DNA of 36,019 nt from contig JAAYWY010000033.1 in NCBI GenBank assembly GCA_012516165.1, forward strand, positions 1-36,019, given 5' to 3'. Of the stretch, positions 6,912 to 26,988 are shown piece after piece. The first letter of the stretch is position 1. Each line of letters starts with the position of its first letter. Below the pieces are notes generated by a model that did not search any database, was not told the origin of the DNA, and saw only the letters and a program-made list of their open reading frames with translations. The DNA is from Bacillota bacterium (GTDB taxonomy: Bacteria > Bacillota > DTU030 > DUMP01). Both the position numbers and the translations under genes were made by a program.

Positions 6912-7844
6912 ATGAAGGTGCACATAGCGCAGGTGGTAAAGAGCCAGATTGCTGTTTGGGCCCGGCAAGAAGGGAAGGAAATTGGTGGGCTGCTATTAGG
7001 CCGGGTACAAAAAAGTGGTGAGCTTATCCGTCGTGTACGGGTGGAAGCAGCTGTGTTGGCCCAAGGGGCCGAGTCGGTGGGAAGTAGTATACGCCTGACG
7101 CCGGAACTGGTGGCCGAAATGACAGAACAGGCTAAACGCGAGTACCCTACTTTTCAAGTAGTGGGCTGGTTTCACACCCATAACGGTCTGGGAGCCTTCT
7201 TTTCCAGCTATGATGCAGCTGTTCATAAAGAATATTTTCCGGAAGTATGGCAGATAGCACTAGTCTTTGACCCAGAGCTAGACAAAGAAGCAATTTATGT
7301 CTGGCAAGGTCAAGAAATTGTTCCTTATGCTTTTGATTCAGGAGCGGAACCACAAAGTTTGATAAGCCAGCGTCCTGTTTTCTCTCGTTATCGTTTAGTT
7401 AATCCCAGACGTTTGTTGGCGTCGATAGCGGTGATAATCTTATTAGTGGCGGCGGGAGTGGGGCTTTTTAGGTGGCGGAGTAATGGATCAGGGGTTCCAA
7501 TACCAGAACCAGGGCCAACAGAGCCTATTGGCAGTCAGGTACAAGAACCGATCAGTTCCGAGCCACCAGCAGCGGCTCCTTCTGTCCCGGCTCCTTCTGA
7601 GGGTACGGGCAATCAACTATTGCTGGAAGGAACTAAATATACTATACAGCCTAATGATAATTTATGGGAGATTAGCCGCCGGTTTTATGGTCATGGTTCG
7701 TACTTTGGATTGATCTTAGAGCATAACCAGATTGACGATCCTCGACAATTAACACCAGGGCAAGAGTTATTGCTACCACCGAAGCCCGAAGGGGGCGTTT
7801 CAGAGGCAGCAGGGACGACAGCGGTTCCGGGTGTAGGGAACTAA
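6912..7844 (+). CDS. Membrane-anchored JAMM/MPN+ metalloprotease-like protein with C-terminal LysM domain
   Basis: EIGG glutamate plus HTHNGLGAFFSSYD (HxHx7SxxD JAMM motif); TM segment 'LLASIAVIILLVAAGVGLF'; Pro/Ser linker; LysM 'YTIQPNDNLWEISRRFYGHGSYFGLILEHNQIDDPRQLTPGQELLLP'; AAGGAG RBS before ATG 6912. Confidence 0.9.
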   Translation: MKVHIAQVVKSQIAVWARQEGKEIGGLLLGRVQKSGELIRRVRVEAAVLAQGAESVGSSIRLTPELVAEMTEQAKREYPTFQVVGWFHTHNGLGAFFSSYDAAVHKEYFPEVWQIALVFDPELDKEAIYVWQGQEIVPYAFDSGAEPQSLISQRPVFSRYRLVNPRRLLASIAVIILLVAAGVGLFRWRSNGSGVPIPEPGPTEPIGSQVQEPISSEPPAAAPSVPAPSEGTGNQLLLEGTKYTIQPNDNLWEISRRFYGHGSYFGLILEHNQIDDPRQLTPGQELLLPPKPEGGVSEAAGTTAVPGVGN

Positions 7845-7851
7845 AATAATG

Positions 7852-8871
7852 TTACCGGTGCCGCGGGTGAACGGTCCCGACAAATAGCCGCCAACTGGAG
7901 AAGATAAAGGCGATTCCACCAACGAGGATGTTCAGGTAAAAGGTGAGCAATCTCCACATCAGCAGATACTGCCGTGCCATAGTTGCTGGTAGCACTGGGT
8001 CGAACACAGCAAGTTGCCACAGTTCGCTGGCTCCGCTGGCCCCCGGTGTAGGGGCAAAAAGAGGGCCAATATACGCCACGTTCTGTAAGTATAACCAGAC
8101 TCGCGCTGTAAATTGGGGAAAGCTAGAAGCCAACAAGATTGGCGCAATGGAAAAAAGGCATATGAAATAGGCAGTGGACGCTCCCATAGCCAACAGTAGC
8201 AGGACAGGGGAGCGGGCCAGTAAAGTAGTGAGATCACAGTAAAACTGGTGGAGGGCTTTTTCAGCTTTGTTTCGAATACCAGAAGGCAAAAGATTTACTA
8301 TTTGGTTTGCTAGTTTAGGCTGAATAAGTAGTACCAGTAATCCCAGCAGGGCCGCTAGATAAAGTAAAACTCCGGTGAGAAAAGCATTATGCCAGGGGAA
8401 AGGAACACCTAGGTTTTGTAACCCTAATACGGCAACTAAAGATAACCCAACTAAGACCATTTGTGATAACCAACCACCTACGGTAACCACTGCTCCTGCT
8501 TCTAACCAGGTGAGGCCGGCTTCTTTTAATACATAAATAACAGCGGGTGTTCCGCCGAAGAGAAAAGGTGTAATAAGGGTAAGAAAGTTGCCAGACCAAA
8601 TAGCGCGTAGAGCAGTGGCATAGGTAATTTCGCGATCTATAGCTCGTGTAAGAATTCTAAGTCTAAGTGAATCAGCCAGCCAGGCTAATATGAGCAAAGC
8701 CATGGCTAGAGCTAGCTGCTTAGAGGGAAAAGGGAGCGGAAATATATCACCAGCTTCGGCTGGCAAATGCCAGAAAACATAGATTGTTGCTGCAGCACTA
8801 ATGGCTATGGCCAAGGCTGTTCCGATAACAAGCTTCTTTTTGGAATGCAACTTTTTCCCCCACAGTTCCAT
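7852..8871 (-). CDS. Flippase-like / lysylphosphatidylglycerol synthase TM-region (UPF0104/YbhN-like) membrane protein
   Basis: Polytopic; 'GNFLTLITPFLFGGTPAVIYVLKEAGL', 'PTPGASGASELW' motifs of this family. Confidence 0.85.
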   Translation of the reverse strand: MELWGKKLHSKKKLVIGTALAIAISAAATIYVFWHLPAEAGDIFPLPFPSKQLALAMALLILAWLADSLRLRILTRAIDREITYATALRAIWSGNFLTLITPFLFGGTPAVIYVLKEAGLTWLEAGAVVTVGGWLSQMVLVGLSLVAVLGLQNLGVPFPWHNAFLTGVLLYLAALLGLLVLLIQPKLANQIVNLLPSGIRNKAEKALHQFYCDLTTLLARSPVLLLLAMGASTAYFICLFSIAPILLASSFPQFTARVWLYLQNVAYIGPLFAPTPGASGASELWQLAVFDPVLPATMARQYLLMWRLLTFYLNILVGGIAFIFSSWRLFVGTVHPRHR

Positions 8872-9090
8872 GATAAATAGATAAATACGGTAAGACTGGT
8901 TTGCATAGAATTACATCTGTTTCATATTATATCAAATTATAGGTGCTGTAAACATAACGGAACGGGCGGATTAGTGGCTGTTTCTTTGCTAGAGAATTTT
9001 AAGCAAGATTGGGAGGATTAACCTGCTGCCTAGCGAATATAATATAGGATGTGGTATTTTTATGGCAATCAGGCGGAGGGAGGTGTATTT

Positions 9091-9861
9091 ATGCAAATCG
9101 ATTTATCGGTAAACACAGCATTGCCGCTGGCTTTAGAAGGAACAGAGCTGCGCTTTGGAGCTGATGTGGTGCCGGTGACCCCTGTTGTATACTCAGCTGG
9201 GGAAATGCGCGAGGTGTTTTACTCACCGGCAGAGGTAGACTCTAAGCAGCAGCTTTATTTTAGTTATAATGGGCTTAGCCTAGAAAAAGATCGTGAGCTT
9301 TTCGAGCGCCATGGTCTACGCTATAACCTGCTTATAATGCCTCCGGCTCTAATTGGACCAGAATATGTCAAGACGGCTGGGCATTATAATCCAGCTCCAC
9401 CGGAGACGGCAGAGACTTATCCGGAAGTGTACGAAGTAGTTCAAGGGCAGGCCCACTTCTTGCTTCAGTATTTAGACCCGGAGATCGGTTCAGTGGAGGA
9501 AGTGATCCTGTTTGAGGCGGCTCAAGGGGACAAAGTTCTTATTCCACCCGATTTTGGCCATGTGGTAATTAATCCAGCCAATGAAACGCTAGTTGTGAGC
9601 AATTTGGTGGCCGATAGCTTTGCTCCTTTATGTGAGCCGTTTATCAAATCGGGCGGAGCAGTATATTATGAGGTACGGGTCCAGGGGGTTTCTACATTTA
9701 TTGCTAATCCCAATTATGACTATATACCGCAACTGCAGCGCCGATTGGCACGTCAGTATCGGGATTTAGGTTTGGTAAAAGGGGTTACCCTATACGAAGC
9801 ATTTATTAAAGACCCTGATGTGTTTCATTATTTAACCCATCCCAACCTGTGTCCCCAATAA
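9091..9861 (+). CDS. Cupin-type (archaeal-type) glucose-6-phosphate isomerase-like protein
   Basis: 'GPEYVKTAGHYNP...ETYPEVYEVVQGQAHFLLQ...DKVLIPPDFGHVVINPANETLVVSNL' resembles the cPGI family; GGGAGGTG RBS; next to pfkA. Confidence 0.75.
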   Translation: MQIDLSVNTALPLALEGTELRFGADVVPVTPVVYSAGEMREVFYSPAEVDSKQQLYFSYNGLSLEKDRELFERHGLRYNLLIMPPALIGPEYVKTAGHYNPAPPETAETYPEVYEVVQGQAHFLLQYLDPEIGSVEEVILFEAAQGDKVLIPPDFGHVVINPANETLVVSNLVADSFAPLCEPFIKSGGAVYYEVRVQGVSTFIANPNYDYIPQLQRRLARQYRDLGLVKGVTLYEAFIKDPDVFHYLTHPNLCPQ

Positions 9862-9878
9862 GATAGAGGTGATTATTA

Positions 9879-10838
9879 TTGCCCAAGATTGCCGTACTCA
9901 CAAGTGGCGGCGATGCACCCGGCATGAATGCTGCCATCCGGGCAGTAGTACATCAAGCGGCTGTGCACGAGGCAAGGGTTGTAGGTATTAAACATGGCTT
10001 TGAAGGACTCCTCAAGCGTGAGTTTGTCGATATGGATCTAGGTTCCGTAGATGATATTATTCAACATGGCGGTACGGTTTTGCGTAGTGCGCGTAGTGAT
10101 CGTTTTCGTACGGCCGTGGGACAAGAGGAGGCAGCGGCCAATCTAAAAGAAGCCGGAATAGATGGCGTGATTGTGATTGGTGGAGAAGGTAGTTATCGGG
10201 GTGGAGCTGCTTTAACGACCAAAGGCATTGCTGTTATTGGGGTACCTGGTACCATCGACAATGATATTCCTTGTACCGATTACACTATTGGCTTTGATAC
10301 GGCAGTAAATACAGTGGTCGATGCAATGAACAAAATCCGCGATACTGCCACTGCCCACGAACGAGCCTTTGTGGTAGAGGTGATGGGACGAGCCTCGGGA
10401 CATATTGCCCTCATGGCTGGATTGGCCGGTGGGGCCGAGTCCATACTTATCCCCGAGATACCATTTGATTTAGACGATGTTTGCCGTCGACTCAAATGGA
10501 GTGCCGAGCGGGGAAAGGTGCACAGCATTATTTTAGTGGCTGAGGGAGTAGCTTCGGCCTATGCTATCGGTGAGGAAATGAAAAAACGAACTGGTTTTGA
10601 TACTAGGGTATCGGTGTTAGGACACCTTCAACGAGGTGGCGCGCCTACGGCCTTTGACCGAATTTTAGCCAGCCGTCTAGCAGCACAGGCGGTGGAAGTC
10701 CTCCTGGAAGGGGAGAACCAAGCGGCTATGTGCTATCGTGCAGGACAAGTGGAGGCAATACCTTTTAGCCAGGTATTCGCTACTACTAAAGACATTGACC
10801 GCTCACTTTATGATTTGGCGGCTGTATTAGCCATGTAA
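9879..10838 (+). CDS. pfkA: ATP-dependent 6-phosphofructokinase
   Basis: 'IAVLTSGGDAPGMNAAIRAVV', 'GVPGTIDNDIPCTDYTIGFDTAVNT', 'VLGHLQRGGAPTAFDR'. Confidence 0.97.
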   Translation: MPKIAVLTSGGDAPGMNAAIRAVVHQAAVHEARVVGIKHGFEGLLKREFVDMDLGSVDDIIQHGGTVLRSARSDRFRTAVGQEEAAANLKEAGIDGVIVIGGEGSYRGGAALTTKGIAVIGVPGTIDNDIPCTDYTIGFDTAVNTVVDAMNKIRDTATAHERAFVVEVMGRASGHIALMAGLAGGAESILIPEIPFDLDDVCRRLKWSAERGKVHSIILVAEGVASAYAIGEEMKKRTGFDTRVSVLGHLQRGGAPTAFDRILASRLAAQAVEVLLEGENQAAMCYRAGQVEAIPFSQVFATTKDIDRSLYDLAAVLAM

Positions 10839-16712: not shown

Positions 16713-17588
16713 ATGGCCGAAATCAAAGCTGCATTTATAGATAGTTGGGCAGACACCAAAGGGATGCTGCCCTTACTTTTTCTACTTTTTATGGGGCTGG
16801 AATTCTTCCAGCATTATCGGGGCGAACAGCTAGGAACATTACTTCGCCGCGCTGGTGCGCTGGGACCGCTTTTTGGGGCTGCTCTGGGGATTATTCCTCA
16901 GTGTGGCTTTTCTGTGGTGGCAAGTTTATTGTACTTACAAGGTTATGTTACCCCTGGTACCTTGCTGGCTGTATTCTTATCCACATCGGACGAAGCTGTA
17001 CCGGTTATGTTGGCCCAACCGGATAAACTAGGTTTTATTGCTCCGCTTCTTGTGGTGAAACTGATCCTGGGTATAATAGGTGGTTATATTACCGACTTGG
17101 TACTGCTGCCTAAGTGGAAACCGCTGGACTATGCGCCAGCTAGTCAGGCGCTGGTGGGACATATACCAGGTGAGCATGCCCATCCTGAGCCGCCCATGGC
17201 CATAATCCGCCATGCTACCCACCAAACAGTGCAAATCTATCTGTTTGCCTTTTTGGCCACCGCAGCACTTACCTATGGTACTGAAAAACTTGGGTTTGAT
17301 CAGATGGCCAAATTACTTTTAGCTGGCAGTCCTTGGCAAATACCGCTGGCAGCAGTTATCGGTCTCATCCCCAACTGCGTCGTTTCCGTGGTCATAACCC
17401 AGCTATACCTAGAAGGAGCTCTGAGCTTTGGTGCTACCGTAGCTGGACTGGCATCAGCTGCCGGGCTGGGACTATTGGTCCTCTTTCGACATAACCGAAG
17501 TTGGGCTGATACCTTCCGGTTAGTGGGACTACTTTTTGGTTTTGCTTTAGTGGAGGGCATGATATTATCGGGAGTGCTTAATTTATGA
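16713..17588 (+). CDS. Putative permease, possibly a heavy-metal/manganese-type exporter
   Basis: Polytopic; two similar halves with 'GIIPQCGFSVVASLLYLQG' and 'GLIPNCVVSVVITQLYLEGALSFG'. Confidence 0.75.
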   Translation: MAEIKAAFIDSWADTKGMLPLLFLLFMGLEFFQHYRGEQLGTLLRRAGALGPLFGAALGIIPQCGFSVVASLLYLQGYVTPGTLLAVFLSTSDEAVPVMLAQPDKLGFIAPLLVVKLILGIIGGYITDLVLLPKWKPLDYAPASQALVGHIPGEHAHPEPPMAIIRHATHQTVQIYLFAFLATAALTYGTEKLGFDQMAKLLLAGSPWQIPLAAVIGLIPNCVVSVVITQLYLEGALSFGATVAGLASAAGLGLLVLFRHNRSWADTFRLVGLLFGFALVEGMILSGVLNL

Positions 17589-17655
17589 CCCGACCTGTGC
17601 CGGGAGTTTAAAAGTGACTTGATATTGACGAGTAAGGGGAAAATATGCTGAACCT

Positions 17656-17721
17656 ATGAAGGAAAAACATTTAGTTGAGCAGAATATTGAAAGTGAAAAG
17701 AAAGAAGGAGATTGGGGGTAG
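17656..17721 (+). CDS. Possible 21-aa leader peptide upstream of plsY
   Basis: ATG...TAG: MKEKHLVEQNIESEKKEGDWG, ending 6 nt before the plsY start; no strong RBS. Confidence 0.25.
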   Translation: MKEKHLVEQNIESEKKEGDWG

Positions 17722-17727
17722 GGGCTC

Positions 17728-18309
17728 TTGCTAGGTACTATAGTCCTGGCCTACCTTTTGGGCTCGATTCCTTGTGGGGTAATTGCTGGAAAGCTAAAGG
17801 GTAAAGACATCCAGCGTTTGGGAAGTGGCAATATAGGTACGGCCAATGCGGCTCGCGTCCTTGGGGTACCGATGGCACTTGCAGTTTTAGTTGGTGATGC
17901 TTTGAAGGGTTTTTTAGCAGTATATTTAGGCAAATGGTTAGGAGGGACACTCACAGCGGCCATCTTGGCAGGCCTGGCAGCTGTGTGTGGCCATAATTGG
18001 TCATTGTTTTTGGGATTTAGGGGTGGTAAGGGTGTAGCAACGTCCTTTGGTGCGTGCTTGGCTTTGTCGCCTGTGTTAGCTCTATCTTTGGTACCAATTT
18101 GGGTGGTAGCAGTAGCTCTGACCAGATACTCATCGTTAGGTTCTATCTTGGCTGCTGGTGCAGCTCCTTTTATGGCTGCTATTTTGCGATTGGGGTGGCC
18201 AATATTTTGGTTTGCAGTGGCTGGAGCTAGTTTAATTATTCTTAGGCATCGAGGCAATATTAAGCGTCTGTTGTCTGGGACCGAGTTGCGGTTAGGGGAT
18301 CGGTTCTAA
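17728..18309 (+). CDS. plsY: Acyl-phosphate:glycerol-3-phosphate acyltransferase
   Basis: 'YLLGSIPCGVIAGKLKGKDIQRLGSGNIGTANAARVLG', 'GHNWSLFLGFRGGKGVATSFG'. Confidence 0.97.
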   Translation: MLGTIVLAYLLGSIPCGVIAGKLKGKDIQRLGSGNIGTANAARVLGVPMALAVLVGDALKGFLAVYLGKWLGGTLTAAILAGLAAVCGHNWSLFLGFRGGKGVATSFGACLALSPVLALSLVPIWVVAVALTRYSSLGSILAAGAAPFMAAILRLGWPIFWFAVAGASLIILRHRGNIKRLLSGTELRLGDRF

Positions 18310-18342
18310 CCTCGGTGCTTTAGAGAGAGGAATAGAGGAATA

Positions 18343-18948
18343 ATGGATTTGCTGGACTATATCGAGGTCAACCCTATCATTGCGGCCGTACGCAATATGG
18401 GTGATTTACGGTCTGCTTTGTCGTCTACAGTACGGGCAGTGTTTCTTCTTACTGGCGATATTAATACTGTAGGTGAAGCGGTACGACTAGCGCGGCAATC
18501 CCATAAAGGTATCTATCTTCATCTTGATTTGTTGGAGGGCTTAGGTAAAGACAAGGCAGCAGTGCATTTTTTGGCCCAGAAAGTTCGGCCCGATGGGGTT
18601 ATCACAACCCGTAGCTATCTTATTCAGGCAGCCAAAGCAGCGGGCTTATATACTATTCAGCGTATTTTTATTTTGGACTCACTGTCGGTCAAAACCGGGG
18701 TGGCTAGTGTGCAGAGTACGCAGCCAGATGCGGTGGAATGTCTTCCTGGTATATTGCCGCGAGTGTTCGGCGAATTAGTTCAGGAACTGGATCGACCTAT
18801 TATTGCTGGTGGTTTGTTGCAGTATCCAGAAGAGATGCGGGCGGTGTTTAATTCTGGGGTAAAGGCGGTATCGGTTAGTAAAAAAACTTTTTGGAATTTG
18901 TTCCATACCAAGGAGGAATTTTTACGGTTTTGCCGAATACCTTGTTAG
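18343..18948 (+). CDS. glpP: Glycerol-3-phosphate-responsive antiterminator GlpP (copy 1)
   Basis: 'NPIIAAVRN', 'HLDLLEGLGKDKAAVHFL', 'PDGVITTRSYLIQAAKAAGLYTIQRIFILDSLSV', 'VECLPGILPRV', 'PIIAGGL'. Confidence 0.93.
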   Translation: MDLLDYIEVNPIIAAVRNMGDLRSALSSTVRAVFLLTGDINTVGEAVRLARQSHKGIYLHLDLLEGLGKDKAAVHFLAQKVRPDGVITTRSYLIQAAKAAGLYTIQRIFILDSLSVKTGVASVQSTQPDAVECLPGILPRVFGELVQELDRPIIAGGLLQYPEEMRAVFNSGVKAVSVSKKTFWNLFHTKEEFLRFCRIPC

Positions 18949-19051
18949 TAACTAGTTAACGGCGCACACACATCTGTATGCTTTAGCTGATGTAGCAAAT
19001 AAATCAGATTTAGCCAGAAAAAGTAAATACTGTGGACGGAGAAATGGAGAA

Positions 19052-19104
19052 AGTCCTATCCTAGGTTCATTTTTTATAAATGAGCCTTGGGTAGGGCTTT
19101 TGTT
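19052..19104 (+). terminator. Leader terminator upstream of glpK, candidate GlpP target
   Basis: AGTCCTATCCTAGGTTCATTT tttat AAATGAGCCTTGGGTAGGGCT, 20 of 21 positions pair (with G-U), followed by TTTTGTT. Confidence 0.8.
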
Positions 19105-19191
19105 ATCTCCGGCCAAGTGGTAGGAAGGAGGTGTATTAGGAAAATTCATAATAAAAATGCTTGATAGAATCTAGTATTATAATTAATTTAA

Positions 19192-20697
<1,506 letters not shown>

Positions 20698-20765
20698 GGG
20701 TAGCTTGGTAACAATAGTAAATATTAACCAGTTGCAGCAAAATTTGTAGCAGGTGGCAGGAGAAA

Positions 20766-20829
20766 AAAGCCACACCCTATTTTATGGTCACAGCCCAGGT
20801 CTCGTCATTGTTTGTGTGGGTGTGGCTTT
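20766..20829 (+). promoter_or_regulatory. Intergenic hairpin between glpK and the G3P dehydrogenase gene
   Basis: AAAGCCACACCC - 40-nt loop - GGGTGTGGCTTT, 12-bp perfect stem ending in TTT. Confidence 0.7.
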
Positions 20830-20864
20830 GTATACTCTGCCAGCCGGACAAAGGAGGTTCTACA

Positions 20865-22349
20865 ATGGAAAGACTGAAGGCGGACGTGGTGGTCATCGGT
20901 GCTGGTGTTACCGGTACAGCGGTGGCCCGTGAGCTGGCCCGCTATCAGCTGAAAGTATTTTTGGTGGAAAAGCATCCTGATGTGGCTTGTGGTTGCACCA
21001 AGGCCAACACAGCCATTGTGCACGCGGGCTACGACGCGACGCCCGGGACTTGGAAAGCTAAACTCAATGTCCGGGGGGCTGCAGTTTACCCTCAGGTGTG
21101 TCGAGAATTAGAAGTAGAGTTTAAGCCTACAGGATCGTTGGTAGTGGCTTTGGCCGAGGATCAAGTGCCCCACTTGTATGAGCTATTAAACCGGGGCTAT
21201 GTTAATGGGGTGCCCGATCTCAAGGTTATTGGTCGGGACGAATTGTTGGCTAAGGAACCATATGTAAACCCCAAAGCAGTGGCGGCCCTGTGGGCTCCTA
21301 CCGCCGGATTGGTCAATCCTTGGGGGCTGGCTATTGCCCAAGCCGAGAATGCAGCTGAAAATGGAGTGGAAGTGTTGCTGGGAGCACCGGTGGTAGGAAT
21401 AGATGTAACAGACGGACTTGTTACAGCGGTACAAACACCAGATGTAATTATTGAAACCCGTTATGTGGTGAATGCTGGCGGAAGGTATTCTGATGAAATT
21501 GCCCGGATGGTGGGCCAAGATGACTTTCGCATTGTTCCGCGCAAAGGAGAATACTATGTATTTGATAAGCGCTTTGGTTATATGGCCAATTGCCCGCTGT
21601 TTCCGGTACCGACCGCCATATCTAAGGGTATTTTGGTTACACCGTCGGTGGACAAAAACTTGTTAATTGGTCCTAATGCCCAAGATCAGGAAGACAAGGA
21701 GGACTTAGACACTACAGCCGAAGGCTTGCAAGAAGTGCTCAGCGAAGCGCTCACCATGATGCCCGATCTTCCTGTAAAAGATGCTATTACTAATTTTGCT
21801 GGACTAAGAGCAGTAGCTAGACCCAGTAATGATTTTGTCCTTGGTCCAGCTCCAGGTGTGCCTAATTTTATTAATGCTGCTGGTATTCAATCGCCAGGGT
21901 TAACATCTGCACCGGCAGTGGCGGAAGTGGTTCGTGATTATCTTCAGATGGCTGGTTTGGAGTTAAAGGGGAAGAAGAAGTTCAATCCCTTCCGCAAAGG
22001 GATTGTCACCTTCCGAGATAAGAGCCATGAAGAGCAGGCCCGACTTATTCAGGAGGATCCTCGTTATGGCCAAATTGTTTGCCGTTGCGAGACGGTAACC
22101 GAAGCAGAAATAGTCCAAGCGCTTAACCGACCGATTCCTTGCACCACCATTGATGGGGTTAAGCGGCGTACCCGTGCTGGTATGGGGCGCTGCCAAGCGG
22201 GTTTTTGTACACCGCGGGTAGTGGAGATAATGGCTCGGGAGCTTGGGCTCAGCTGGGATGAGATTACCAAAAAGGGCGGCGCTTCCCGGTTGCTCTTGGG
22301 GCAGACGAAGTGCTCAGCTGCCGTAAAGGGGGCAGGGAAAGATGCGTAG
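20865..22349 (+). CDS. glpA: FAD-dependent glycerol-3-phosphate dehydrogenase (GlpA/GlpD-type, with BFD-like Cys domain)
   Basis: 'DVVVIGAGVTGTAVARELARYQLKVFLVEKHPDVACGCTKANTAIVHAGYDA'; C-term 'IVCRCETVTEAEIVQAL...RAGMGRCQAGFCTPRVVEIMAREL'; GGAGGTT RBS before ATG 20865. Confidence 0.92.
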   Translation: MERLKADVVVIGAGVTGTAVARELARYQLKVFLVEKHPDVACGCTKANTAIVHAGYDATPGTWKAKLNVRGAAVYPQVCRELEVEFKPTGSLVVALAEDQVPHLYELLNRGYVNGVPDLKVIGRDELLAKEPYVNPKAVAALWAPTAGLVNPWGLAIAQAENAAENGVEVLLGAPVVGIDVTDGLVTAVQTPDVIIETRYVVNAGGRYSDEIARMVGQDDFRIVPRKGEYYVFDKRFGYMANCPLFPVPTAISKGILVTPSVDKNLLIGPNAQDQEDKEDLDTTAEGLQEVLSEALTMMPDLPVKDAITNFAGLRAVARPSNDFVLGPAPGVPNFINAAGIQSPGLTSAPAVAEVVRDYLQMAGLELKGKKKFNPFRKGIVTFRDKSHEEQARLIQEDPRYGQIVCRCETVTEAEIVQALNRPIPCTTIDGVKRRTRAGMGRCQAGFCTPRVVEIMARELGLSWDEITKKGGASRLLLGQTKCSAAVKGAGKDA

Positions 22350-23619
22350 TATAAAGTACGATGTGGTAGTAATTGGAGCTGGACCGGCCGGCTTGGCGGC
22401 TGCTTCCCGTGCCAAGGCCATGGGTGTAAAAAGAGTGCTGCTGGTGGACCGAGATCGGGAACCGGGCGGTATTTTGCAACAGTGTATTCACAACGGTTTT
22501 GGCCTCCATTTATTCAAGGAAGAGCTTACGGGGCCTGAGTACGCATATAAATTTATTGAGGAGAGCTATGCTTCTGGCGTAGAATTTTTGATGAATACTA
22601 TGGTGCTTACGATACAGCCTGACCGCCAAATTTATGCCATAAATCGGAAAGTAGGGATGCTTAAGATCGAGGCTCAGGCTATTGTGCTGGCCATGGGATG
22701 CCGGGAACGGAACCGGGGAGCAGTGACTATTCCCGGTAGCCGACCGAGCGGTATCTTTACCGCTGGCACTGCTCAACGTTTTGTCAATATGGAAGGTTAT
22801 ATGCCTGGGCGTCACGTGGTGATCCTAGGTTCAGGGGACATCGGTCTTATCATGGCACGGCGATTTACTTGGGAAGGGGCCAAAGTAGAAGGCGTATTTG
22901 AAATCATGCCTTATTCCAACGGCCTGAACCGCAATATAGTGCAGTGCCTTAAGGACAACAACATACCTCTTCATCTTAGCCATACGGTGACTAAAGTCCA
23001 TGGCAATGAGCGGATTGAGGCAGTTACGGTTTCCCAGGTAGATGAGCACTTTACTCCTTTATCTGGTTCAGAACAGGTAATACCTTGTGACACCTTGCTC
23101 CTATCGGTAGGTCTTATTCCGGAGAATGAGCTTAGTCGCGATGCTGGTATTCATATTGATCCGGTAATAGGGGGTCCAGTGGTTACTGATGAGATGGAGA
23201 CTACCTTGGCAGGCGTGTTTGCTTGTGGTAACGTGGTCCATGTGCATGACCTGGTAGATAATGTAACCCGCGAAAGCTGGCTGGCTGGTGAGGGGGCAGC
23301 GCGGCTGGTACTAGGACAACAACCGACAAGGGATCTAGTGACCACTAAAGCTGGCTCAGGGGTTCGTTATGTGGTACCACATAAGATACATGTGGAAAAT
23401 CTAGCTACCAGAACCACCACACTTTATCTTAGAGTTTTGCAACCAGAGGAGAATGTAAGAGTAGAGCTGGTCTCAGGGACTAAATCGTTGTTTAGCGTAC
23501 ACCAACGGGTAGTGCGCCCGGCCGAAATGGTGAGCATTAATGTACCACCAAAACGTATTACGGCTACTGCTGGGGAAGAACTTATGGTTCGCCTGGTAAG
23601 GGAAGGTGACAAGGCATGA
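22342..23619 (+). CDS. NAD(P)/FAD-dependent oxidoreductase, G3P dehydrogenase partner subunit
   Basis: 'YDVVVIGAGPAGLAAASRAKAMGVKRVLLVDRDREPGGILQQCIHNGFGLHLFKEELTGPEYA'; overlaps both neighbouring genes. Confidence 0.9.
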   Translation: MRSIKYDVVVIGAGPAGLAAASRAKAMGVKRVLLVDRDREPGGILQQCIHNGFGLHLFKEELTGPEYAYKFIEESYASGVEFLMNTMVLTIQPDRQIYAINRKVGMLKIEAQAIVLAMGCRERNRGAVTIPGSRPSGIFTAGTAQRFVNMEGYMPGRHVVILGSGDIGLIMARRFTWEGAKVEGVFEIMPYSNGLNRNIVQCLKDNNIPLHLSHTVTKVHGNERIEAVTVSQVDEHFTPLSGSEQVIPCDTLLLSVGLIPENELSRDAGIHIDPVIGGPVVTDEMETTLAGVFACGNVVHVHDLVDNVTRESWLAGEGAARLVLGQQPTRDLVTTKAGSGVRYVVPHKIHVENLATRTTTLYLRVLQPEENVRVELVSGTKSLFSVHQRVVRPAEMVSINVPPKRITATAGEELMVRLVREGDKA

Positions 23620-24005
23620 GTACTATTTATGAACTAACCTGCATTGCTTGTCCAATGGGATGTCAAATAAAGACGAAAGTCCAGCAGGATAAGATCATAA
23701 GCATAAAAGGTAATTCCTGTAAACGAGGAGAATTATATGCTCAAGATGAAATTTTCCGACCAATGAGGGTGATTACGAGTACAGTCCGTGTTCAGGGCGG
23801 TGTATTGCCAGTGGTTCCTGTGCGAACAGCTGAGCCCATACCGAAGGATAAAATTGGGGTAGCCTTGCAGGAGATAGCTTGCATAACTGTTACTGCCCCG
23901 GTTAAGTTCCACCAAGTAATAGTTCCGAACATTGCCGATACCGGGGTGTCAGTTGTAGCTAGTCGTCCTCTAGCAGCTAAAGAAGGTGGCGAAAAAACAG
24001 CCTAA
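23616..24005 (+). CDS. DUF1667-like Cys-rich protein
   Basis: 'YELTCIACPMGCQIKTKV...GNSCKRGELYAQDEIFRPMRVITSTVRVQGGVLPVVPVRTAEPIPKDKI'; 4-nt overlap with the upstream gene. Confidence 0.88.
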   Translation: MSTIYELTCIACPMGCQIKTKVQQDKIISIKGNSCKRGELYAQDEIFRPMRVITSTVRVQGGVLPVVPVRTAEPIPKDKIGVALQEIACITVTAPVKFHQVIVPNIADTGVSVVASRPLAAKEGGEKTA

Positions 24006-24034
24006 GCCGAGGAAGGTAGGGGAGGGAGAACACT

Positions 24035-24667
24035 TTGACAGAACTGGAGCGTCAGTTAAAGACTCGGCCGATCATGGCGGTTATCCGTGATGATGTAAGT
24101 CTGGAATTAGTGTTAAAATCGTCGGTATGCTGTGTTCTCCTGGCCTACGGCGATCTAGTGAGTATTGGTCCGACAATTCGTCGGCTTAAGGCAGCGGAAA
24201 AGTTGGTATTCCTTAATTTCGATATGATCGATGGTCTCGGTGCTGATCATGCGGCAGTACGTTTTGTGGCCCGCCGTACAGAGCCACATGGTATTCGCAG
24301 TACCCGGAGCCAGATCATTAAAGCAGCGCATAAGGAACAACTTTTTACCATCCAGAGTCTATTTTTGCTTGATTCATTAGCATTAAAAAATGGTCTCAAT
24401 TCAGTAATTAACTGTTCACCCACGGCGGTGGAAGTGCTTCCGGGGATTATGCCTCGGGTTATTCGTGATATAAGTGAACGGTGTCCTTTGCCTCTTATTG
24501 CCGGTGGCCTAATTCGTAGCCGCATAGAGGTCCAAGATGCTTTGGTGGCAGGGGCAGTTGGCTGTGCTACTACTGACCGTACTCTCTGGGATTTGAACCG
24601 TTGTGTCAAGGGAGGCGATATCAAAGCAAACGATTCCCAGCGTACACCAATATTGCACTACGCATAA
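24035..24667 (+). CDS. Second GlpP-family antiterminator paralogue
   Basis: 'RPIMAVIRDD', 'NFDMIDGLGADHAAVRFVARRTEPHGIRSTRSQIIKAAHKEQLFTIQSLFLLDSLAL', 'VEVLPGIMPRVI', 'PLIAGGLI'. Confidence 0.9.
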   Translation: MTELERQLKTRPIMAVIRDDVSLELVLKSSVCCVLLAYGDLVSIGPTIRRLKAAEKLVFLNFDMIDGLGADHAAVRFVARRTEPHGIRSTRSQIIKAAHKEQLFTIQSLFLLDSLALKNGLNSVINCSPTAVEVLPGIMPRVIRDISERCPLPLIAGGLIRSRIEVQDALVAGAVGCATTDRTLWDLNRCVKGGDIKANDSQRTPILHYA

Positions 24668-24696
24668 ATTAAGATTATAGAGGGAGGCGTACGGGG

Positions 24697-25569
24697 ATGG
24701 CAATTGACATTGGGTATTTAGCAGCGTCCTTTGGTGGCGGTGTTTTGGGTGCCTGCTTGGGGGGATTACCAGCCTTTATTTTGACCGGATTTGTAGTGAT
24801 GGTGGGTGTAGCAGCTAGTTTCTTTGGTGGACCCGAGGCAGCTAATATTATAAACGGTGTTGCTTTTGGTCCGGTTCTAGGTCCCTATGTGGCTTTTGCT
24901 GGCGGCGTGGCTGCGGTTACCTATGCTTCTAGTCGTGGTTTTGAGGTGGCAGGCAAAGATATTGGTACTCCGTTGGCTCAGTTGAATAATCCCAGTGTCT
25001 TGTTTGTAGGTGGTATCTTTGGCGTTATTGGTTATCTACTAGTTACTCTTTGGAATACCTTGGGCCTAAAGACGGATACAGGTGGATTAACTGTGGCTAT
25101 TTCGGCCATTATTGCTCGAGCTGTATTTTATCAGGAAGGCCCCTTTGGTACGTTAACCGAAGAGGCGAAAGCCAAAGGTGGCTTATTTGCTGTTACCGAA
25201 GGCCATTGCTGGCTGCCGTGGCAGAGTGATTGGGGCCAGGTAGCCTTGATTGGTGTAGGATTCGGATTAGCAGCAGGTCTAGTAGGTATTGTTACTGGTC
25301 AGCCAGTGCTGGCGTTTGGTATTAGTGCTGCTTCGTTGGTGTTTTTGCGGTTTGCCCCTGGTTTCCCGGTAACACACCACATCACACTTCCTGCAGCTAC
25401 CGCTGCGTTGGCCACGGGAAGTGTGTGGATGGGCGGCCTATTTGGGTTGCTGGGTGCTATTTTGGGTGAAGTAGCAGCTCGTTGCTTCTTTAACTATGGC
25501 AAAAACCATATTGATCCGCCAGCCGTGTCGTTGGTAATCACTAATACTATCATTCAGCTATTACTATAG
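24697..25569 (+). CDS. Uncharacterised polytopic membrane protein, last gene of the glp cluster
   Basis: Gly/Ala-rich hydrophobic segments throughout (e.g. 'GPVLGPYVAFAGGVAAVTYASSRGFEVAGKDIG', 'HITLPAATAALATGSVWMGGLFGLLGAILGEVAARCFFNYGKNHIDPPAVSLVI'); good GGGAGG RBS; terminator follows. Confidence 0.85.
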   Translation: MAIDIGYLAASFGGGVLGACLGGLPAFILTGFVVMVGVAASFFGGPEAANIINGVAFGPVLGPYVAFAGGVAAVTYASSRGFEVAGKDIGTPLAQLNNPSVLFVGGIFGVIGYLLVTLWNTLGLKTDTGGLTVAISAIIARAVFYQEGPFGTLTEEAKAKGGLFAVTEGHCWLPWQSDWGQVALIGVGFGLAAGLVGIVTGQPVLAFGISAASLVFLRFAPGFPVTHHITLPAATAALATGSVWMGGLFGLLGAILGEVAARCFFNYGKNHIDPPAVSLVITNTIIQLLL

Positions 25570-25633
25570 TGTTGGTTTTTAGCAGGGGCTAAAATGATTA
25601 ATAATTTTAGGTAAAGAACCAAGTGTAATTTTA

Positions 25634-25664
25634 GCCAGTGGCCTTCTTCAGGTCACTGGCCTTT
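25634..25664 (+). terminator. Rho-independent-like terminator at the end of the glp cluster
   Basis: GCCAGTGGCCT tcttc AGGTCACTGGC then CTTT. Confidence 0.7.
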
Positions 25665-25748
25665 GATATCTGCAGCAAAGATGAGCCGGTAGTTAACTGG
25701 AAAAGGCATGGAATACAGGCTCAGCTGTCAGAAAAAAGTGCAGGTTTC

Positions 25749-26912
25749 TCAAACCTTGGGAGCAGGGCTTATGGTACGAAGAGTAAAAAATAGCCCTATA
25801 GTAGCCAGGGCAGCCAAAGAGCCGCCGAAGTAAAAAGGAGCAGCTGGTCCGAAAGCATTCCATAGCAAGCCCCCGATGAGCGATGCCGGGAGGAGAGCGA
25901 TGCCGATTAAGGTGGCATGAAGCCCAATAAGGCTGGCTCTTTGCTCCGGCGGGGCAATTTCGGCGATGAGAGCTTTTTCTACCCCTTCGGTAAAAGCTGA
26001 CCAGAGTCCGTAGAAACCAAATAATAGCCACAAACTATTAGGCTTAGTAACCACAGCAAAACCAAAGTAGGCCAAGGCGTAACTGAGATCGCCTAAGATG
26101 ATGAGACGACGGCGACCAATTTTATCGGACAGGCGACCGGCCGGATAGGAGAGTAGGCTGTAGGTGAGATTGTAGACTAAGTAAAGAAGAATAACAGTGG
26201 CATCGGTAAACCCTAGCGATTTAGCTCGTAGAAGCAGCAGCTGATTAGAAGAGTTGCCCACGGTAAAAACAAAATCCAGGATCAAAAAGGCCTTTAATTG
26301 TTTGTCTAGAATACCCCAGTTTAGTGCTAGGGGTTTTTCTTTTGTTGTCATCAGGGGTGGCTTAGTTTCGCGTACCAAAAACAGCGTAGCTACACCTAAA
26401 GCAGCCGGGATAAAGGCGTATAAAAATACGGCTCGATAATCACCCTGATAAAAAGTTAGGAAATAGTAGCTAAGTATCAGACCAATAGAAGCTCACAAAG
26501 TATCCATAGCTCGGTGCAACCCAAATGAGCGGCCTAAAGTAGTTTCATCTACTGATTCGGCCAGCAAGGCATCGCGGGGAGCTGTGCGTATTCCTTTGCC
26601 AAAGCGATCGGCAATTCGTCCTAAGAGTACACCTGGCCAAGAATTGGCAAAGACAAGAGCTATCTTACCCAGGCCGGAAAACGCATAACCACCAATGGTG
26701 AGGGGTTTTCTTTTGCCTAAGCGGTCCGACCAATAACCGGAGAAGACTTTGAGCAGACTGGCCAGACTTTCGGCAATACCTTCTATTAATCCTACAATTA
26801 CTGGTGTAGCGCCCAATCGGCTGGTAAGATACAAGGGAATGAGCGGATATACCATCTCACTGCTGATATCGGTAAACAAGCTGGATAAACCCAAAATGAT
26901 TACATTAAACAT
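25749..26912 (-). pseudogene. MFS transporter interrupted by one in-frame TGA
   Basis: ORFs 26493-26933 and 25749-26378 share one frame; open translation continues across ATG GAT ACT TTG TGA GCT TCT ATT GGT into '...FFTFYQ'-type TM sequence without frameshift. Confidence 0.85.
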
Positions 26913-26988
26913 TGCTTCCGCCTCTTTACACAAACTTACTGATAACTTAATTGTAGTCCCAAGTTTGTTGGTAAGTCAATGCAAAAAG

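Follow-up and report, generated by a model that had tools for sequence, protein, structure and literature searches.

The glp operon and its last gene

The stretch of DNA analysed here (the window, 36,019 nucleotides of contig JAAYWY010000033.1 of a Bacillota bacterium) carries on its forward strand a glycerol operon with the gene order plsY, glpP, glpK, glpA, glpB, DUF1667, glpP2 and, finally, a gene for a 290-residue membrane protein. The glycerol-3-phosphate (G3P) acyltransferase PlsY (17728-18309; PF02660, E=6e-53) is followed by the G3P-responsive antiterminator GlpP1 (18343-18948; PF04309, E=9e-59), glycerol kinase (GlpK, 19204-20697; TIGR01311, E=1.5e-228), a GlpA-like G3P dehydrogenase/oxidase (20865-22349; NF033460, E=8e-90, and TIGR03377, E=2e-45, both below the cut-off), a GlpB-like FAD/NAD oxidoreductase (22342-23619), a DUF1667 protein in the place of the third dehydrogenase subunit (23616-24005; PF07892, E=8e-30) and a homologue of the antiterminator, GlpP2 (24035-24667; PF04309, E=4e-53). 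The kinase, dehydrogenase complex and regulators listed in the initial annotation are recovered, except that the third dehydrogenase gene is DUF1667 and not GlpC. DUF1667 also follows glpB in two other genomes (G090 and G304; G numbers denote genomes and L numbers loci), apparently taking the place of GlpC as the third subunit, and the N-terminus of the protein encoded in the window is weakly Molybdop_Fe4S4-like. The operon thus holds two different GlpP-like, G3P-responsive antiterminators; an Rfam search of positions 17500-26000 gave no antiterminator or riboswitch RNA as a target for such proteins. The plsY-glp cluster is headed by an ArsP_2-type 'arsenic efflux' permease (16713-17588; PF11449, NF037962 E=1e-65), as it also is in G001, G004 and G007. 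On the reverse strand, positions 25749-26933 hold two consecutive fragments of an MFS transporter, 26493-26933 (the N-terminus) and then 25749-26378, which look like a single gene broken by a frameshift or an assembly error.

The last gene of the operon (24697-25569, forward strand) is an exact open reading frame of 290 codons with an ATG start, separated by 29 nt from the end of glpP2 (24667) and preceded, at a distance of 9 nt, by a Shine-Dalgarno-like sequence (GAGGGAGG, 24680-24687, forward strand). That this is a real gene, kept under selection, is seen from comparison with its two nearest homologues, which gives a dN of 0.065-0.083 and a dS >1.5. The operon is closed by a stem-loop (25634-25660, forward strand; 11 bp, 7 of them GC) with a weak T-tract (CTTTGATATC), which starts 65 nt after the stop codon and has the longest stem among the terminator-like sites of the window (19 found versus 10.6 expected). 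The location originally assigned to a multi-spanning 290-residue protein, directly after glpP2 and before the operon terminator, is, therefore, correct. The protein is very hydrophobic (GRAVY 0.93) and, as had also been noticed, lacks the paired NPA motifs of the aquaporin/GlpF family: NPA is absent, the sole NP dipeptide is N97-P98, and no conserved NPA-like pair appears in the alignment of its relatives.

The initial annotation had further stated that the operon contains no GlpF or GlpT, and had raised the possibility of a functional glpF elsewhere in the genome. The statement holds for the whole assembly (1.93 Mb, 291 contigs, 93% complete, so that a gene in the missing 7% is possible), in which there is no member of the MIP (aquaporin/GlpF) family and no GlpT match above the cut-off. 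The alternative polyol enzymes searched for were DhaK and PduC, and the same 93%-complete assembly contains neither.

A family without a name

The 290-residue protein matches no Pfam family at E<=1 and no NCBIfam model. When 24 homologues were searched against the same collections, no convincing model match was obtained, and none of them matches MIP (PF00230); a sequence search of the PDB with the protein and the 24 homologues gave no related solved structure. Weak matches to pMMO and colicin in these searches (E>=0.04) were discarded as noise. Thus, the profile search that had been suggested led to no Pfam or NCBIfam family with an unrelated known substrate, but to an unnamed one.

Homologues were found in 14 of 100 related genomes in a first search, in Budvicia, Rhodobacter, Jeotgalibaca and one Erysipelotrichaceae genome, and on plasmids of Rubrobacter, Microbacterium, Rhodococcus, Haladaptatus, Natribaculum and Haloferax volcanii (pHV4), where PGAP annotates them as hypothetical. 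A profile search recovered the family in 28/398 genomes from the phylum of the window (a sample of mixed completeness, 61-100%) and in 2/119 Enterobacterales; among the sampled Alphaproteobacteria only the Rhodobacter already known was found. The viral contigs searched contain no homologue, and the DNA of the Enterobacterales member has no match in the E. coli genomes. The unnamed family is real, with scattered members among Bacillota, Enterobacterales, Rhodobacter, actinobacteria and haloarchaea; so patchy a distribution would fit a catabolic part that moves horizontally.

Two glycines, G105 and G109, are invariant across the 42 members aligned, and H227, D273, H228, P63, D127, R141, P274 and A276 nearly so. 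Besides histidines, R141 is the only basic residue conserved at 85% or more, and there are no conserved cysteines. The H227/H228 pair sits on one short helix, and H271 is replaced in several members. The conserved residues lie within helices, and no soluble sensory or output domain is present.

Predicted structure and internal repeat

An AlphaFold model (pLDDT 82.7, pTM 0.81), built from only seven sequences, has about ten membrane helices, the long ones spanning residues 5-21, 23-43, 63-79, 99-122 and 128-145 in the first half, and 179-200, 203-218, 227-240, 243-263 and 274-289 in the second. The structure prediction called for by the initial annotation thus gave a model whose fold matches no solved one: Foldseek found nothing significant in the PDB, the first entry being GlpF with E=0.17 and a TM score of 0.20, and nothing significant among viral models.

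The two halves resemble each other. In a helix-by-helix comparison of family profiles, the order-preserving pairing (1-1 to 5-5) ranks first of 120, and hhalign independently sets helix 4 in the same register, residues 100-122 with 241-263 (P=0.0012, versus 0.031 for the best of nine controls). In this pairing D127 corresponds to D273, and the PH of the frequent GPH motif (63-64; PY in the 290-residue protein) to the HH of THH (227-228). At the level of sequence comparison, this shows a 5+5 helix internal duplication that carries the conserved residues, in a channel or transporter architecture; internal repeats of this 5+5 kind are typical of transporters. With an odd number of crossings per half, as modelled, inverted halves would be required.

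Genomic neighbourhoods

Neighbouring genes were named from translated open reading frames, with spot checks against Pfam and NCBIfam. About 26 of 43 family loci lie in clusters for glycerol (glpK), dihydroxyacetone (dhaKLM) or propanediol microcompartments (pdu), and another eight adjoin other polyol kinases or alcohol/aldehyde oxidoreductases (34/43 in total by our own tally, with several loci coming from related genomes and, thus, fewer independent events). The remaining loci, about nine (family f13, Jeotgalibaca, Erysipelotrichaceae and Haladaptatus), have no polyol genes nearby.

In the window and its kin the family gene follows glpK-glpA-glpB-glpP2. In G005 (L001), G004 (L002) and G007 it stands between the glp genes and dhaK-dhaL-dhaM; G001 has this same order plus a GlpF homologue inserted before glpP2, so that GlpF and a family member share an operon. 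G090 has the gene in the classic glpF position, ahead of glpK-glpA-glpB-DUF1667 and of a more distant glpP-dhaKLM, and in G304 it comes after glpA-glpB-DUF1667-glpK and a second FGGY kinase. A FAD oxidase gene precedes it, and genes for a GlpK-like kinase and GlpD follow it, in Enterobacterales G618 and on a Microbacterium plasmid. That plasmid carries another family copy, which ends the series epoxide hydrolase-haloalcohol dehalogenase-glpK between copies of IS1634 (L115; Microbacterium sp. J1-1 plasmid NZ_CP089591.1, 5369-10299). Epoxide hydrolase and haloalcohol dehalogenase lead from haloalcohols and chloropropanediol to glycerol, upon which glpK can act, and the cassette is probably a mobile module for haloalcohol-to-glycerol degradation. 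In a sister family the gene follows dhaL-dhaM; at one locus (L039 of G012, 7664-9914) two tandem family copies with an HPr-like gene between them follow dhaL-dhaM, and these copies might form a heteromer. The family tree suggests at least four separate associations with glp genes.

The second main context is that of 1,2-propanediol. In the window's own family, three members have a paralogue of the glp copy directly ahead of pduA/pduB-pduC. The family gene is found between PduP and PduS/PduT in G037, and adjoins PduS/PduT in G243, G281, G365 and G375. It occurs in glycyl-radical-type microcompartment loci in Rhodobacter and G371, and at the edge of a microcompartment locus in Budvicia, the signature enzyme of which lies outside the stretch examined. 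Elsewhere it is beside or near a pentulose-type kinase (Haloferax, Rubrobacter, G193), beside iron alcohol dehydrogenases or aldehyde ferredoxin oxidoreductase (AOR; G104, G155, G347, G189), or beside alcohol/aldehyde dehydrogenases (Rhodococcus). An equivalent slot may be occupied by a MIP, as in the orders iron alcohol dehydrogenase-AOR-pduCDE-MIP of G104 and AOR-MIP-glycyl-radical activase/enzyme of G023, and a PduF homologue is known in GRM4 loci of Shewanella (PMC4207490, a microcompartment survey). The glp and pdu contexts are intermingled on well-supported branches of the family tree: G090 (glp) groups with G365 and G281 (pdu) with support 100/97, and the window clade (glp) joins its pdu paralogues with support 98/95. 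This interleaving is what a single shared class of substrate predicts.

A divergent clade (L042 and L083-L085, from G023, G197, G245 and G144) consists of single genes away from polyol genes, divergently oriented in G023 and G144 from a response regulator and a glutamine-synthetase-like gene; its members may have a different role.

Co-occurrence with PduC and MIP

Family members occur in 9/19 genomes with PduC versus 13/235 without it (p=2.7e-6; 254 genomes, a set whose composition was reconstructed from the genome numbering), and the association persists when genomes are collapsed by taxonomic family (7/14 versus 3/~98, p~1e-5). At 23 PduC places, a family gene lies within 1.2 kb in three cases and within 16 kb in seven, and a MIP gene within 2 kb in two; MIP and family member are never at the same PduC place, except for the superlocus of G001, where they are 15.6 kb apart.

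The relation to MIP bears on the initial description of the protein as a candidate GlpF replacement. GlpF is missing from 124 of the 191 glpK genomes of the sample. Among these 191, a MIP is rarer in the genomes that have a family member (2/17 with a member versus 65/174 without, p=0.036, uncorrected for kinship). A genome-wide anticorrelation, plausible at first, proved absent on testing (MIP in 6/28 genomes with a member versus 84/370 without), and because the anticorrelation is weak and G001, a close relative, has both proteins in one glp operon, the description is only partly right and the word 'replacement' too strong.

Proposed function and alternatives

The reading preferred here is that the 290-residue protein is probably a facilitator of the cytoplasmic membrane for small uncharged polyols, glycerol in this organism, and not a homologue of GlpF. 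That the family as a whole represents an unrecognised, non-aquaporin class of channels for glycerol and small polyols, serving the catabolism of glycerol, dihydroxyacetone, propanediol and haloalcohols in bacteria and archaea, i.e. an independent answer to the problem solved by GlpF and PduF, is a broader proposal, to which about an even chance is given. The protein would act as a channel or uniporter: glycerol would enter through it, be trapped by GlpK as G3P and be oxidized by GlpAB with the DUF1667 protein. The two five-helix copies would place (G)PH/THH and (T)D(T)/(HI)DPPA as pseudo-symmetric pairs lining the pathway. The substrates common to the clusters would be glycerol, 1,2-propanediol and, perhaps, dihydroxyacetone and C4-C5 polyols; glycerol is favoured in the source genome because the gene is kept there without DhaK or PduC, and the range may vary, since some members lie beside pentulose-type kinases or AOR and alcohol dehydrogenases. 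The analysis shows the family with its conservation and neighbourhoods, the internal repeat, and an assembly free of GlpF, DhaK and PduC; we infer transport, its substrate, its passive mechanism and the lining of the pore by the paired motifs, the least certain step being the choice of a channel rather than a coupled carrier, which follows from the GlpF/PduF slots that the family occupies and from its few conserved charges. The earlier guess of a non-aquaporin glycerol transporter or channel gains good support from gene neighbourhoods in several phyla, with transport itself as a prediction.

Transport of other compounds has to be weighed against this reading. The protein could carry an intermediate or product, by uptake of dihydroxyacetone or export of propanol, 1,3-propanediol, propionate or an aldehyde, as might be suspected from the dhaK or dhaL-dhaM genes that adjoin the family in many relatives, from the iron alcohol dehydrogenases and AOR that flank it in G104, G347 and G189, and from G001, in which GlpF and a family member coexist as if their substrates differed. 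However, the source genome lacks DhaK, the haloalcohol-glpK and glpK-glpD cassettes yield none of these products, and only small polyols are common to all contexts, which makes this alternative unlikely. The initial annotation had also considered G3P or glycerophosphodiesters as the substrate, an idea consistent with the G3P dehydrogenase and the two G3P antiterminators of the window operon. It now appears very improbable, as the family occurs just as often in clusters that act on 1,2-propanediol without G3P, and is found in haloalcohol clusters, where none is imported either; the protein has, moreover, few conserved basic residues with which to bind a dianion, and no NCBIfam or MFS match.

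Roles other than transport are suggested by particular neighbours. Since many of these are flavin or Fe-S oxidoreductases, and H227/H228 and D273 are almost invariant, the protein might serve as a redox partner in the membrane, handing electrons from GlpAB, the RnfC-like PduS or AOR on to quinone. This is improbable, somewhat more so than carriage of an intermediate or product: plasmid cassettes in which the sole adjoining gene is glpK, or one for a sugar-type kinase, offer no such donor, conserved cysteines are lacking, the position of the histidine pair and the variability of H271 leave no conserved paired haem site, and the 5+5 repeat is one typical of transporters. A role in the membrane as sensor or regulator for polyol operons is about as improbable as G3P transport; antiterminator genes do adjoin the gene in the window, and in G371 it is next to a response-regulator/histidine-kinase pair, but the family travels more with kinases and enzymes than with regulators, and the protein has its conserved residues inside the helices and no soluble domain for sensing or output.

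Relation to known systems and significance

As a putative polyol facilitator, the family resembles GlpF and PduF (MIP, PF00230) in its neighbours and slots (glpK, pdu, AOR/diol dehydratase clusters) and in having an internal repeat, but it differs in having about ten helices, where MIP proteins have six and two half helices, in the absence of a PF00230 match, an NPA pair or a fold match, and in its possible coexistence with GlpF, as in G001. Distant homology to MIP was examined and rejected (hhalign of 24 members versus five MIPs: probability 0.4%, E=0.15 over 17 columns). GlpT and UhpT (TIGR00881, MFS) are, likewise, part of the glp regulons of other bacteria; the family, at about 290 residues, is not a 12-helix MFS protein, none of 24 members has an NCBIfam match, and its contexts are without phosphorylated substrates. 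Every defining test of MIP or GlpT membership having failed, the name GlpF is unwarranted, and the claim is that the protein works alike.

Among the open-access papers searched, none was found that assigns a role to the family. The GRM3 propanediol microcompartment locus of Clostridium beijerinckii encodes CIBE_4888, a 'conserved membrane protein of unknown function', which has MetK and a response regulator/LytS pair as neighbours and is strongly induced with its locus on L-rhamnose (log2 8.75/7.81/5.87; PMC6384099). The family member of G371 appears similarly placed, adjoining a response regulator/histidine kinase pair with MetK not far away, and CIBE_4888 may, by gene order only, be homologous to the family. 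In Haloferax volcanii the pHV4 protein HVO_RS03065 (hypothetical) belongs to the family, with 40% identity; its gene overlaps a carbohydrate kinase gene about 2.5 kb from the glpCBA operon, but the kinase is XylB-like and not GlpK, so that the substrate may be another polyol or sugar. The parts consulted of the literature on Haloferax glycerol metabolism name no such transporter.

The entry of glycerol into cells is usually attributed to aquaglyceroporins or to simple diffusion. For archaea, one recent study states that GlpF is rarer than glycerol kinase and that other transporters must serve (PMC11962113). The family described here is a candidate for such glycerol entry with members in the manipulable organisms Haloferax, Rhodobacter and Rhodococcus, which makes the question directly testable. 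If the proposal is true, many propanediol microcompartment loci would gain a name for the transporter that they lack, and a new part would become available for the engineering of glycerol and diol conversion.
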